The notes beneath the pieces are model-generated. The model saw only the letters and a list, made by a program, of their open reading frames with translations. It was not told the DNA's origin and made no database searches. 64,000 nucleotides of DNA from Halorubrum alkaliphilum (GTDB lineage: Archaea > Halobacteriota > Halobacteria > Halobacteriales > Haloferacaceae), in assembly GCF_017873815.1 (NCBI RefSeq), contig NZ_JAGGKQ010000003.1, forward strand, positions 62,001 through 126,000, given 5' to 3'. The position numbers were made by a program, and so were the translations under genes. Below, one piece after another: positions 2,528-63,289 of this stretch (position 1 is the stretch's first letter; the number at the start of each line of letters is the position of its first letter).

Positions 2528-2710
2528 CTTCCACCGCACACCGTGAACCCCACCGCGTCAATGCCGTCGCGCGGCTTCAACTCCCCAAAGGTCCGTCTGA
2601 AACCGTGTTGCGCTCGACGACTCCTCTGAACCGCGAGTCATCGGTGACGCCGTGTTCCGTCTCCGCATCCGTTTCGTCCGTCGTTCGTCCACCCGTACTA
2701 CTCTGTCAGA

Positions 2711-4617: not shown

Positions 4618-4792
4618 GGGGCTGTGGCCAAGCCAGGCATGGCGACTGACTCCAGAGGCTCGCGCCCGGGACGACACTCCAGACTGATATACCGAGCGGC
4701 CGACTGATCATCGGTCGCGTTGACGACCCTCTGGAGTTCCGAGGCGCACCGGAGATATCAGTCGATCGGGGGTTCAAATCCCTCCGGCCCCA
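4618..4792 (+). tRNA. tRNA-Trp (anticodon CCA) with intron
   Basis: Exon 1 is 4618-4655 and exon 2 is 4757-4792, giving a 74-base mature tRNA. The acceptor GGGGCTG pairs with CGGCCCC, D stem GCCA/TGGC, anticodon stem ACTGA/TCAGT with loop CTCCAGA (CCA at 4652-4654), T stem GGGGG/CCCTC with one G-T pair. The 101-base intron begins after G37. A bulge-helix-bulge is visible: helix CTCC/GGAG (4650-4653, 4751-4754) flanked by three-base bulges AGA and ATA, as the archaeal splicing endonuclease requires. CCA is not encoded. Confidence 0.95.
4656..4756 (+). ncRNA. tRNA-Trp intron carrying two box C/D methylation guides
   Basis: Two guide units can be read. The first has a C-like box GGACGA (4669-4674), guide ACTGATAT (4683-4690) and D-like box CCGA (4692-4695); the fifth base before the box, A4687, pairs with U39 (4758). 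The second has TTGACGA (4720-4726), guide TCTGGAGT (4730-4737) and CCGA (4739-4742); its fifth base, G4734, pairs with C34 (4652). This matches the known Haloferax intron that directs 2'-O-methylation at C34 and U39. It lies within the tRNA-Trp gene. Confidence 0.85.
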
Positions 4793-24465: not shown

Positions 24466-24560
24466 GGAGAGGGTTCCCGATCGACCGGCTACCGGCTCGC
24501 TCGGACCGGAACACGAACGGGCTCCTTCAACAATACGCCTCGGACCGATCCGTCGGCGGA

Positions 24561-24865
24561 GAGTGCTCCTTGATCGATGTCGGGAGCGGGTATAGCACGT
24601 CGGGTGGGTGGTCGTTTATAAGTAGTGAAGCGGTGTTGCTTGCGGCTGTTTATAAGTGGTTGAGTATGGATCGGCGGTATTGAACTAGTTAAAAGCACCA
24701 ACCGCTCGCTTATACGTAGTTGCCGGCGGATCGGCGGTAAACACCGCCAAAGCCCCAGCCGTGAGGCGCTCCGCGCCTCTGGCAGCCGGACGTAGTCCGG
24801 CGACTGCCCCTTTGAGTCCCACCCCGCACAGCGACCGCCCCGCACCTCACGCCTCCCCAGCCTCG
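24561..24865 (-). repeat. Structured non-coding element, copy 1
   Basis: Read on the minus strand, this stretch shares several blocks with another at 26106-26446: GAGGCTGGGGAGG, GTGGGACTCAAAGGGGCAG, CTGGGGCTTTG and a distal ATCGATCA-GCACTCT region. The core (24748-24814) folds as CAAAG/CTTTG, a GGG/GGG internal loop, a CAGTC/GGCTG stem and two 7-bp hairpins (GCCGGAC/GTCCGGC and GAGGCGC/GCGCCTC). No protein-like codon usage is seen in any frame. A TATA-like box lies upstream on the minus strand at 24935-24948. The function is unknown. Confidence 0.6.
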
Positions 24866-25147
24866 TCAGGGGCGCGGGACGAGAGCGAAGCTCTCGCTAG
24901 CAACCGGCGGCTCCGCCGCCGGTGACGCCACCGCGGTTTATTTATAAGAGATCGTCGCTGCCGCCCGTTCCATATTTAAATACGATCTCGTCGCCATCGA
25001 TCTGAGCGATCTACTCCCGGCATCGCTCGTTGCGCTCGACGACCGGTGACGGCGGCTCACCGAAGCAGCCAACGAGAGAGAGAGAGAGAACCGCCGAGCA
25101 TACATTCGCGGGGACGGCGCTGCGGTGCGTGAGTGTCGGCGGCCGCG
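24866..25147. other. Intergenic region with GC hairpins and TATA-like boxes
   Basis: Right of element copy 1 are two perfect hairpins, CGAGAGC/GCTCTCG and CCGGCGGC/GCCGCCGG, then TATA-like TTTATTTATAAG and ATATTTAAATAC boxes and a GA-rich run at 25073-25090. No gene is seen. Confidence 0.5.
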
Positions 25148-25681
25148 TCAGTGTGCGGGCTCTTCGTCGGGCGCGCGCATGTCGTCGATCCGGAGGATGA
25201 GGACGTTCGCGGTGTCGTCTTTCCCGTCCACGGTTCCGCGGATGGCGAGCTTCGAGAGCGGGGTCGGTCCCACGGTGACCGAGTCGCCCTCGTGGAAGTC
25301 ACGGACCGAGCCCTGAACGTGGATCTCCGCGCGGCAGAGCTCCGGGTGATGGACGCTGGAGAGGTCGATCCCGTCCACGTTGACCCCATCTACCTCCTCG
25401 CCGTTGTGTTTGATGGGAACGTGAGCCGGCTCGTCCATCCGTTGGATGTCGAGCGCCTCGTAGGCGTTCGAGGTGGGTTTGTATCCTCCCTTGGGGCCGG
25501 GGACGCCCTCGACCAACTGAAGCGCCTTCAGGCTCTGCATCTGGTTGCGGATGGTACCGGGATTCCGGTCGACTTCCTCGGCTATCGACTCGCCTTTCAC
25601 CGCGTCCTCCTCCTGGCCGTACAGGTTGATGAGGGCCGTGAGGATGCTTTTCTGGCTCGATGTGAGCTCTATCGATGACAT
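25148..25681 (-). CDS. Winged-helix (Rrf2-like) transcriptional regulator
   Basis: The protein has 177 residues from the ATG at 25681; an upstream in-frame start would add nine arginine-rich residues. The N-terminal winged helix (LTSSQKSILTALINLY, SIAEEVDRNPGTIRNQMQSL, PGPKGGYKPT) matches the Rrf2-like haloarchaeal family. The C-terminal half (CRAEIHVQGSVRDFHEGDSV, TPLSKLAIRGTVDGKDD) is a beta-barrel-like domain with one cysteine and no Fe-S motif. The ligand and targets are unknown. It lies between two copies of a structured repeat. Confidence 0.82.
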   Translation of the reverse strand: MSSIELTSSQKSILTALINLYGQEEDAVKGESIAEEVDRNPGTIRNQMQSLKALQLVEGVPGPKGGYKPTSNAYEALDIQRMDEPAHVPIKHNGEEVDGVNVDGIDLSSVHHPELCRAEIHVQGSVRDFHEGDSVTVGPTPLSKLAIRGTVDGKDDTANVLILRIDDMRAPDEEPAH

Positions 25682-25750
25682 AACTCCGAATAGACGACGA
25701 CCCCGCATAAATCCGATGGAAGAGCCTTATAAACGAATCGGCGGGACGGA

Positions 25751-25990
25751 TCACGGTCCGTCGAGACCACGGAACCGGAGGTACGCGACCGGACTCGCCA
25801 GTACGACGATAACCCCGAGAACGACGAACACGAGGGCGGCGTCGCCGACGAGCGGGACGAGCCCCGCCCCGACGAGGCCGATGATCGCGCCGGTGAACGC
25901 CACGGCGATCAGCGCGCCGGCCGGCTCGATGTCACCGGGGTCGATGCCGGTCGGATCGTCGTCCGCCACCGCTTCCGTCTCTTCGTCCAT
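25751..25990 (-). CDS. Small membrane protein, function unknown
   Basis: The protein has 79 residues: an acidic N-terminus of about 22 residues, then two hydrophobic helices (GALIAVAFTGAIIGLVGAGL and AALVFVVLGVIVVLASPVAY) and a short basic end. It is 69 bases upstream of the winged-helix gene on the same strand, so the two may share a transcript. No family is recognised. Confidence 0.65.
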   Translation of the reverse strand: MDEETEAVADDDPTGIDPGDIEPAGALIAVAFTGAIIGLVGAGLVPLVGDAALVFVVLGVIVVLASPVAYLRFRGLDGP

Positions 25991-26105
25991 ACCCTCCCGT
26001 TCGTCCCGGCGACCGAAACCGTGACGGATCCGCGATGGGATCGGGCGGATCCGTTGAAATTCCGGTCTTCAAATGGCTTCTCGACTGAAACACCCGGTCG
26101 CTGAA

Positions 26106-26446
26106 GAGTGCTTTCTGATCGATATCGGGAGTACGTCCATTAGAACGGTTGTGTGACCCTTTATAAACGGTCGAACGACGTCGCCGGCGGCCGTGTATAC
26201 GTCGTTGCTGGGGCGGTAAATACGTCTGAAGGCTCGATCGTTCGCTAATAAATGATTACTGCTGGATCGACGGCGAACGCGTTCAAAGCCCCAGCCTGCT
26301 CCGGTCGAAGGGCTCGCTGCGCGCTGGAACGGGCTCGCGATGCTCGCCCGTTCCAGTGCTTGCGTCACCCGTCTTCCCGGAGCAGGCTGCCCCTTTGAGT
26401 CCCACCCCGCACCGCACGGCACCGCACCTCACACCTCCCCAGCCTC
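26106..26446 (-). repeat. Structured non-coding element, copy 2
   Basis: This is the second copy of the element at 24561-24865, in the same orientation. The core (26284-26397) keeps the CAAAG/CTTTG pairing and GGG/GGG loop, but the next stem is now 13 bp (CAGCCTGCTCCGG with CCGGAGCAGGCTG) and the inner hairpin is 11 bp (CTGGAACGGGC with GCCCGTTCCAG). Stem sequences differ between copies while pairing is kept. A TATA-like box (CTTATAAG) lies on the minus-strand upstream side near 26545-26552. Confidence 0.6.
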
Positions 26447-26750
26447 GCCGAAACGGCGCTTATAAGCGCCGTTCCGGGCTCCCTCGCGGGCTCCTCGCGG
26501 CCTCGCTCCGCTCGGCCACTCGGAGGCGCGCCACCGTATCGTCTCTTATAAGCAATCGTTGAAGCCGCTCGCGGCTGTTTTAAGTTCGATCACGGTTCTC
26601 TCGGTCCGAGATGTTCACGGTGGATGGGCGGGCGGATGGATGGGTGGATGGATAGGCGGGTGGATGGATGGGTCCGGAGCGAAGTCGTCGTCGTCGACGA
26701 GTGCGGACCGGACCCCGGCCATTCAAGCCACGTCGCGTTCGCCTTGGCGT
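26447..26750. other. Intergenic region with a 22-base palindrome and GGATG repeats
   Basis: A perfect palindrome, AACGGCGCTTATAAGCGCCG plus TT, lies at 26452-26473 beside element copy 2. At 26621-26674 short GGATGG(GC/AT)-type units repeat in tandem. No gene is seen; the open frame running into arginase here is unlike coding sequence. Confidence 0.6.
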
Positions 26751-61804: not shown

Positions 61805-63289
61805 GTGAGTCTCGCGATCCAACTGGGCGTCGTCGTGGGCTACCTGCTCGTCGCGCTCGCGGTCGGGCTCGTGGCCTATCGCGTTGCGGGGGCGACCGCG
61901 GAGGACTACTACCTCGCGAGCCGGTCGATCGGAACCCTCGTGCTGCTGTTCACGACGTTCGCCACGTTGCTCTCGGCGTTCACCTTCTTCGGCGGACCAA
62001 ACCTCGCGTACCAGGCTGGCCCCGAGTGGCTGATCGTGATGGGCGCGCTCGACGGGGTGCTGTTCGCGGTGTTGTGGTACGTCATCGGGTATAAACAGTG
62101 GCTCATCGGGAACCGAAACGGCTACCTCACGCTCGGGGAGATGCTCGGCGACCGGTTCGGCTCCGCGGGGCTTCGCGCGCTCGTCGCCGGGATCAGTCTC
62201 GTCTGGCTCTTTCCGTACGTCATGCTCCAGCAGATGGGGGCAGGAGAGGCTATCGTCGGGCTCACGAACGGCGCGGTGCCCTACTGGGGCGGGGCAGCAC
62301 TGATCACAGCCTTCATGATCGGCTACGTCACGCTTGCGGGGCTGCGCGGCGTCGCGTGGACCGACACGATCCAGGGACTGTTCATGCTCTCGATCGTCTG
62401 GATCGCGGCCGTCTGGGTGCTCTCGGCGGTGGGCGGGCTCGGGGCGGCTACCAGCTCGATGCTCGCAGCCCGTCCCGAGTTCGGGAGCTTCGGCGGCGGG
62501 CTCTACTCGCCGGCGTTCATCGTTTCCAGTGCTATCACCATCGCGTTCGGCGTGACGATGTTCCCCCAGATCAACCAGCGCTTCTTCGTCGCGAAGAGCG
62601 GTGCGGTGCTCAAACGCTCCTTTACGCTGTGGCCCGTCCTCGTCCTCCTGTTGTTCCTGCCCGCGTTCATGATCGGCGCGTGGGCGGTTGGGATGCCGAT
62701 CGACGTGCCCGAGGGCGCGAACGTGCTCCCGGTGGTGTTGAACGAGTACACGCCGGTGTGGTTCGCCGCGCTCGTGATCGCGGGTGCGATGGCCGCGATG
62801 ATGTCCTCGTCGGACTCGATGCTCCTCTCCGGGTCGTCGTACTTCACGCGCGACCTCTACCGTCCCTTTATCAACCCTGACGCCTCCGAGCGCCGCGAGG
62901 CGTGGCTCGCGCGGATCGGCGTCGCGGCGTTCGCGACGCTCGCCTTTTTCGCCAGCCTCCTTCGCCCCGGCACGCTGATCGAGGTGGGCGACACCGCCTT
63001 CTCCGGGTTCGCGCTGCTCGCGCTCCCCGTGATATGTGCGCTCTACTGGGACCGGACCACCCGCGACGGGATGATCGCCGGCGTGCTCGTCCCACAGGTC
63101 GCGTACCTGACGGTGGTGTTGTCGTCGGTGCTCCCGCTCGTCCCGACGCTTCCCCGCTCCGTCGCCGGGGGTTGGGACATCGCACTCGGGCTGATGGTCC
63201 TCTCTGCGGTCCTCACGGTCGGCGTCTCGCACCTGACCGCGCCGACCGCCGAGAGCGACGCTTCTCGGTTCGCTGTTGCTGGCGACTGA
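61805..63289 (+). CDS. Sodium:solute symporter (SSS family)
   Basis: The protein has 494 residues from a GTG at 61805, with about 13 membrane segments. SSS features include VGYLLVALAVGLVAYRVAG, DYYLASRSIGTLVLLFTTFA, GYVTLAGLRGVAWTDTIQGL and AAMMSSSDSMLLSGSSYFTR (sodium site region). It imports an organic solute, such as an organic acid, sugar or amino acid, with sodium. The substrate is unknown. DUF3311 pairing and two palindromes upstream suggest regulated expression. Confidence 0.92.
   Translation: MSLAIQLGVVVGYLLVALAVGLVAYRVAGATAEDYYLASRSIGTLVLLFTTFATLLSAFTFFGGPNLAYQAGPEWLIVMGALDGVLFAVLWYVIGYKQWLIGNRNGYLTLGEMLGDRFGSAGLRALVAGISLVWLFPYVMLQQMGAGEAIVGLTNGAVPYWGGAALITAFMIGYVTLAGLRGVAWTDTIQGLFMLSIVWIAAVWVLSAVGGLGAATSSMLAARPEFGSFGGGLYSPAFIVSSAITIAFGVTMFPQINQRFFVAKSGAVLKRSFTLWPVLVLLLFLPAFMIGAWAVGMPIDVPEGANVLPVVLNEYTPVWFAALVIAGAMAAMMSSSDSMLLSGSSYFTRDLYRPFINPDASERREAWLARIGVAAFATLAFFASLLRPGTLIEVGDTAFSGFALLALPVICALYWDRTTRDGMIAGVLVPQVAYLTVVLSSVLPLVPTLPRSVAGGWDIALGLMVLSAVLTVGVSHLTAPTAESDASRFAVAGD

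Follow-up and report, generated by a model that had tools for sequence, protein, structure and literature searches.

The 64,000 nucleotides of Halorubrum alkaliphilum DNA analysed here (positions 62,001 to 126,000 of contig NZ_JAGGKQ010000003.1, hereafter referred to as the window) contain, on the minus strand, two copies of a dispersed element that is mobile or was formerly mobile and whose strand-specific fold is under selection; this conclusion is strongly supported. Taken further, the element can be read as REPIN-like and non-autonomous, with a hairpin recognised as a folded single strand, more likely of DNA than of RNA, a reading in which we place about half of our confidence. The element is apparently undescribed, having neither a description in the open papers searched nor a name in the family libraries.

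Anatomy of the two copies in the window

The two copies share the box GTGGGACTCAAAGGGGCAG, which occurs exactly twice in the window (24804-24822 and 26387-26405, both on the minus strand) and in none of 100 shuffles, in agreement with an earlier note that had described common boxes; a second box, GGCTGGGGCTTTG, is located at 24747-24760 and 26283-26296. The outer CAAAG/CTTTG stem and the GGG/GGG internal loop fold as that note described, as do the 13-bp CAGCCTGCTCCGG/CCGGAGCAGGCTG stem and the 11-bp inner hairpin of copy 2, and the CAGTC/GGCTG pairing with two 7-bp hairpins of copy 1. The sites proposed for the copies (24561-24865 and 26106-26446) are correct, but their extent was underestimated, as the true element exceeds them at either end. 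On the 5' side it comprises two more hairpins and a GGCTGGGGAGG box, reaching out to approximately 24948 (copy 1) and 26552 (copy 2), and the opposite end lies at approximately 24519 (copy 1) and 26047 (copy 2), within remnants of transposon-type ends. The features of both copies are as follows, all on the minus strand:

24881-24923 (minus strand): copy 1, two short hairpins (24903-24923 and 24881-24895) in place of the usual H1 and H2, from the fold and the layout compared with 205 copies
24840-24865 (minus strand): copy 1, 5' box CGAGGCTGGGGAGGCGTGAGGTGCGG, common to other copies
24804-24822 (minus strand): copy 1, box GTGGGACTCAAAGGGGCAG, forming the 5' half of the outer stem; none expected in shuffles
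24757-24806 (minus strand): copy 1, degenerate H3 hairpin consisting of two 7-bp hairpins, interior motif lost, from the covariance model and the fold
24747-24760 (minus strand): copy 1, box GGCTGGGGCTTTGG, forming the 3' half of the outer stem, from the fold
24606-24746 (minus strand): copy 1, 3' tail of direct repeats of about 60 bp, each ending in TATA-like CTTATAAA
24519-24583 (minus strand): copy 1, decayed type-A transposon-like end (GGCTCC...GATCGATGTCGGGAG), recognised by eye and below the HMM threshold
26545-26552 (minus strand): copy 2, TATA-like box 5' of H1
26527-26535 (minus strand): copy 2, GGTGGCGCG 5' of H1
26488-26526 (minus strand): copy 2, 5' hairpin H1, from the fold and the layout comparison
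26446-26478 (minus strand): copy 2, H2 hairpin GCCCGGAACGGCGC TTATAA GCGCCGTTTCGGC, from the fold
26422-26447 (minus strand): copy 2, 5' box CGAGGCTGGGGAGGTGTGAGGTGCGG, from the fold
26280-26406 (minus strand): copy 2, canonical core with box, GGG/GGG loop, H3 with conserved ACGCAAGCAC / GCGCAGCGAG interior, and box; training row of covariance model R1
26047-26110 (minus strand): copy 2, type-A transposon-like end with inverted terminal repeat GGATCCGTTGAAAT (nhmmer E 9e-14, locus L018)

Copy 2 is canonical, while copy 1 is rearranged: the interior motif conserved throughout the order is kept in the former and lost from the latter. With R1, copy 2 scored 110 bits (E 3e-20; the E-values of the model are rough), a score obtained partly by construction since its core (locus L018) was among the 32 training rows. 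Copy 1, scored with the same model, which was built mostly from other copies, reached 54 bits (E 4e-9) because the interior of its stem is replaced by two small hairpins.

Distribution and consensus structure

The genome of Halorubrum alkaliphilum contains 51 matches to a 16-base box when up to one mismatch is allowed, compared to none for a reversed control pattern. The box is present in 50 of 53 Halorubrum genomes with a maximum of 169 copies per genome, copies being collected by box sequence so that decayed ones are under-represented. All exact-match records were from Halorubrum, and a variant box was found in 94 copies in one genome outside it. An element restricted to Halorubrum, as suggested by the exact-box searches, was rejected on the basis of a covariance search of haloarchaeal genomes, of the kind proposed in the earlier note, which returned numerous homologues: R1 (127 positions) detected the hairpin core in 220 of 293 genomes and in 69 of the 87 genera of the order, and thirteen chosen genera carried between 3 and 124 copies each.

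The core has a common order comprised of GGTGGGACTSAAAGGGGC, a copy-specific stem of 8-16 pairs, a conserved interior (GACGYAAGCAC opposite GCGCAGCGAG), an apical hairpin and GGGGCTTTS, with near-invariant GGG/GGG internal loop and interior loops. In Halorubrum and some other genera it is preceded by a 5' part consisting of GGTGGCGCG, H1, CGCGAGGGAG, H2 and GAGGCTGGGGAGGCGTGAGGTGCGG. In the 3' tail of the Halorubrum copies, the box is followed up by about 60 bp that end in CTTATAAA, and both together are repeated one to five times. TATA-like boxes are found at fixed upstream places and in the 3' repeats of the Halorubrum copies; by eye, none was seen upstream of the cores in other genera. At one gene boundary shared by two genera (L346 and L356, family f7) the core occupies the same place and its stem changes are compensated, which suggests very long persistence at one site.

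No Rfam 15 family matched the window copies or the core loci examined in seven further genomes, a result that held when the E-value was relaxed, and no description was found in the open papers, in line with the earlier statement that the element belongs to no named family. A viral origin was rejected, the window copy having no phage match and its box no match in IMG/VR. Elsewhere in the window, a 175-nt, presumably intron-containing tRNA match was found at 4618-4792 (plus strand), and a lone Rfam CRISPR-DR24 match at 2574-2603 (minus strand), just past a tRNA gene.

Covariation and the folded strand

Double-sided changes were seen in 20 of 30 pairs across 32 diverse copies. The alignment of 84 copies taken from five other genera was fitted to the model and therefore somewhat favours structure; in it, 95.9% of the cells pair, compared to 30-41% with slid partners, and 549 cells are double-sided, compared to 152 in shuffles. 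Covariation, which the earlier note had named as a test, is consequently present beyond both the shuffled and the slid controls, and it is strand-specific. Among the cells without Watson-Crick pairing, 66 are G-T and 12 A-C (p 3e-10), and the outer stems of the Halorubrum copies show 38 G-T versus 17 A-C after one dominated position was dropped; this excess of G-T over A-C indicates that one particular strand folds. The share of G-U pairs in the element (2.8-4.3%) is lower than in the tRNA stems of the same loci (6.0%).

The earlier note had also proposed compensatory changes in the stems. Pairing is indeed kept, but a stepwise, pair-by-pair origin should be assumed with caution, as many stems in Halorubrum differ through the swapping or flipping of whole hairpins. 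Three orthologous copies (L243, L252 and L253) are located at one gene boundary, and in two of these the right flanks are nearly identical while the hairpins differ completely. The H3 interior lies forward in 175 of 183 copies and is inverted in the remaining 8, and flips from G-C to C-G are common with few intermediates. The different hairpins at orthologous sites, together with the eight inverted H3 interiors, show that a large part of the variation comes from whole-hairpin exchange or flipping, for which template switching provides a documented route (PMC8794818). At five loci of the Halorubrum alkaliphilum genome (L016, L019, L022, L024 and L077), the hairpin junctions carry inserted strings of small palindromes whose loops are three bases long, which look as though the small hairpins were mobile themselves or arose by template switching.

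Mobility and terminal repeats

The orthologous site of the window is mostly empty in relatives, a copy or remnant being found in seven of the other 29 fetched loci. Copies at orthologous sites lie in either orientation, and occupied and empty alleles can be compared among close relatives. Inverted ends that start with GGCTCTGTTGAAAT flank approximately 23 of the 205 Halorubrum copies, either on one side or on both. These ends are of two types, point almost always inward and lie at consistent distances, with the core between them in either orientation. The target duplications are 8 bp long: they read TTATAACT/TTATAATT in L074, have one or two mismatches in three core copies, and are perfect in the plasmid elements L290 and L293, which have the same ends and other cargo. 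The former (L290:252-1628, plasmid p163 of Halorubrum sp. BOL3-1) has type-A and type-B ends, a perfect 8-bp duplication and an enclosed gene annotated as a restriction endonuclease, and is a transposase-free cargo transposon.

Contig 24 of the Halorubrum alkaliphilum genome (G000) encodes an IS5-family transposase preceded by the terminal repeat of these inverted ends, which makes an IS5-type transposase acting in trans a good candidate mover in Halorubrum. An IS6-family origin of the ends, the first idea based on the 8-bp duplication, was rejected since the IS behind the repeat belongs to the IS5 family, and IS240-type matches were discarded as a source because they lack those ends. The small number of copies with recognisable inverted ends counts against the main reading: most Halorubrum copies show none, and none were seen by eye around the cores of other genera, so that the majority may have moved, or been kept, by some other route. 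In L081, near position 1807 (minus strand), an apparent IS605-type right end (CCCACGACTTCAGTCGTGGG) is inserted within H3.

Outside Halorubrum the element frequently forms head-to-head pairs, with about 20 divergent pairs and one convergent pair. The spacers measure 25-52 bp (family f4, eight pairs), most of them too short for an archaeal promoter, or 119-256 bp, most of which contain the 5' part. Ten Halorubrum genomes carrying between 6 and 96 copies, including G001 (96), G018 (94), G028 (62) and G045 (53), had no match to Y1_Tnp (PF01797). A retron or other retroelement was ruled out by the absence of reverse transcriptase, RVT_1 having no match in any of the 53 Halorubrum genomes.

Genomic and plasmid context

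The copies are intergenic, with some enrichment between convergent genes in Halorubrum and no orientation bias relative to genes, which for this comparison were called by a simple acidity heuristic. A UTR or terminator element tied to genes in one orientation was rejected for lack of this bias. One plasmid was matched by the window copy and 40 haloarchaeal plasmids by the consensus core. In the short plasmid form, an RPA-like gene adjoins the core in all ten loci examined, from ten strains, the core being located approximately 470-750 bp from the start of this divergent gene; an RPA/SSB-type OB fold was found in the neighbouring protein (four sequences scanned). The plasmids with the short form are mostly typed with a type IV secretion system, and these type-IV-secretion plasmids are probably conjugative. 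Between the core and the RPA-like gene, the plasmids are identical at about 75% of positions, and the intervening sequence has many hairpins. A 480-700 nt non-coding region 5' of the RPA/SSB-like gene of T4SS plasmids (L390-L393 and L456-L461; e.g. L390:3535-4108), which keeps an identity of about 75% across distant genera and is full of long perfect hairpins, may function in transfer or in single-strand initiation.

Nature of the element

The earlier note had left the choice between a functional RNA and a palindromic mobile repeat. Its mobile half is favoured by the multiple copies, the insertion polymorphism, the inverted ends, the target duplications, the paired copies and the lack of orientation bias. 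That the fold was instead selected in RNA, the copies being transcribed genes for structured non-coding RNAs, or processed RNA elements, of one family spread by transposition, is possible but rather doubtful. The strand-specific fold with its conserved non-canonical interior loops, the bias of G-T over A-C, and the TATA-like boxes upstream and in the 3' repeats of the Halorubrum copies are in its favour, as is a 600-nt, highly structured and very conserved non-coding plasmid region in which the core forms the final domain. Nevertheless, the cores of other genera appear by eye to lack an upstream TATA box, head-to-head pairs whose 5' ends lie 25-30 bp apart cannot accommodate promoters between them, orientation to genes is unbiased, G-U pairs are rarer than in tRNA stems, and no Rfam relative was found. 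For the proposal that single-stranded DNA is the acting form of the fold, the balance is about even. Single-stranded DNA is preferred to RNA on indirect grounds: no obvious promoter is seen outside Halorubrum, the neighbouring gene is SSB-like and G-U pairs fall below the level of tRNA stems. The TATA-like boxes upstream of the Halorubrum copies argue against this preference.

Pairing might also be kept by mutation alone, with template switching and gene conversion perfecting palindromes in a decaying repeat and so imitating covariation. Orthologous copies with nearly identical flanks that differ by whole hairpins, the eight inverted H3 interiors and the frequent G-C/C-G flips with few intermediates all speak for this mechanism, which is documented (PMC8794818). 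It does not account for unpaired boxes and interior loops that stay near-invariant throughout the order, the preference of H3 for one orientation (175:8), the asymmetry between G-T and A-C or the fixed position on plasmids. As a full account we consider it improbable, although template switching or gene conversion probably does operate on the stems. The GTGG-tagged hairpin, the intergenic position, the high copy number and the inverted pairs would fit a REPIN-RAYT system of archaea in which a Y1 (HUH) transposase is the mover. This reading is contradicted by the ten Halorubrum carriers of 6-96 copies that lack Y1_Tnp and, barring a highly diverged HUH enzyme, is very improbable. Least probable, to the point of being negligible, is that the minus-strand frames 24489-24845 and 26069-26422 encode related small proteins. 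Both are open for 117-118 aa and contain AGWDSKGQ, but this peptide is only the translated box, the stem lengths of the copies differ by non-multiples of three and the changes are compensatory rather than synonymous; the earlier note was correct in setting a protein gene aside.

Under the preferred reading of a mobile element acting as a folded DNA strand, the core would be recognised by a putative protein when its strand is single and folded, presumably at replication forks, during conjugative transfer or in transposition rather than as a transcript. In Halorubrum the element is likely moved in trans by an IS5-family transposase that works on the inverted ends, and recombination or template switching would exchange or flip hairpins between copies, leaving the arms paired while their sequences change. 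The copy fixed on plasmids beside the RPA/SSB-like gene suggests a role in the handling of incoming single strands. More tentatively, and with somewhat less than even confidence, we propose an order-wide haloarchaeal module, the folded single strand of which is read by a putative host factor and which is both a selfish chromosomal repeat and a functional component fixed next to the RPA-like gene of type-IV-secretion plasmids, being neither a RAYT-driven REPIN nor a known class of RNA.

Comparison with known systems

Similar to the REP and REPIN sequences of bacteria (PMC3116915, PMC2817692), the element forms persistent populations of high-copy intergenic hairpins, often in inverted pairs. However, REPs measure 20-40 nt and the core described here about 110-130 nt with conserved interior loops, ten carrier genomes have no Y1 transposase, and the element was seen in haloarchaea only. 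The PATE and SMR repeats of Haloquadratum are likewise small, palindrome-bearing, transposase-free mobile repeats of haloarchaea; SMR-A repeats are about 110 bp long with an unknown mover, and PATEs derive from IS605 ends (PMC3119063), to which the core, in a comparison with PATE and SMR by description, bears no resemblance. With IS5-family MITEs it shares the GGCTCTGTTGAAAT inverted terminal repeats, common to the IS5 transposase-bearing copy, the 8-bp duplications and the lack of its own transposase. It differs in that such ends are found in a minority of copies, and that the core is found throughout the order in places where such ends do not enclose it and, where they do, may have either orientation.

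The F-type conjugative plasmids have single-stranded promoters and hairpins in their leading region, large one-strand hairpins being located beside an SSB gene. The haloarchaeal transfer plasmids resemble them in this arrangement, known here from sequence alone, whereas the core is also scattered over chromosomes. The attC sites of integrons consist of a folded strand with paired boxes, an unpaired spacer and a variable terminal stem, an anatomy which the element shares. Identity with attC was rejected, as the boxes are GTGGGACTSAAAG / CTTTS and not the GTTRRRY/RYYYAAC boxes of attC, and the cassette arrays of integrons are absent.

Haloarchaeal genomes apparently carry tens to more than 100 copies of one structured element, which confounds annotation by drawing false gene and false tRNA calls. 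It provides a system for asking how repeated hairpins last very long without a RAYT, how palindromes are maintained, by template switching or by selection, and how haloarchaeal transfer plasmids treat single-stranded DNA on arrival.
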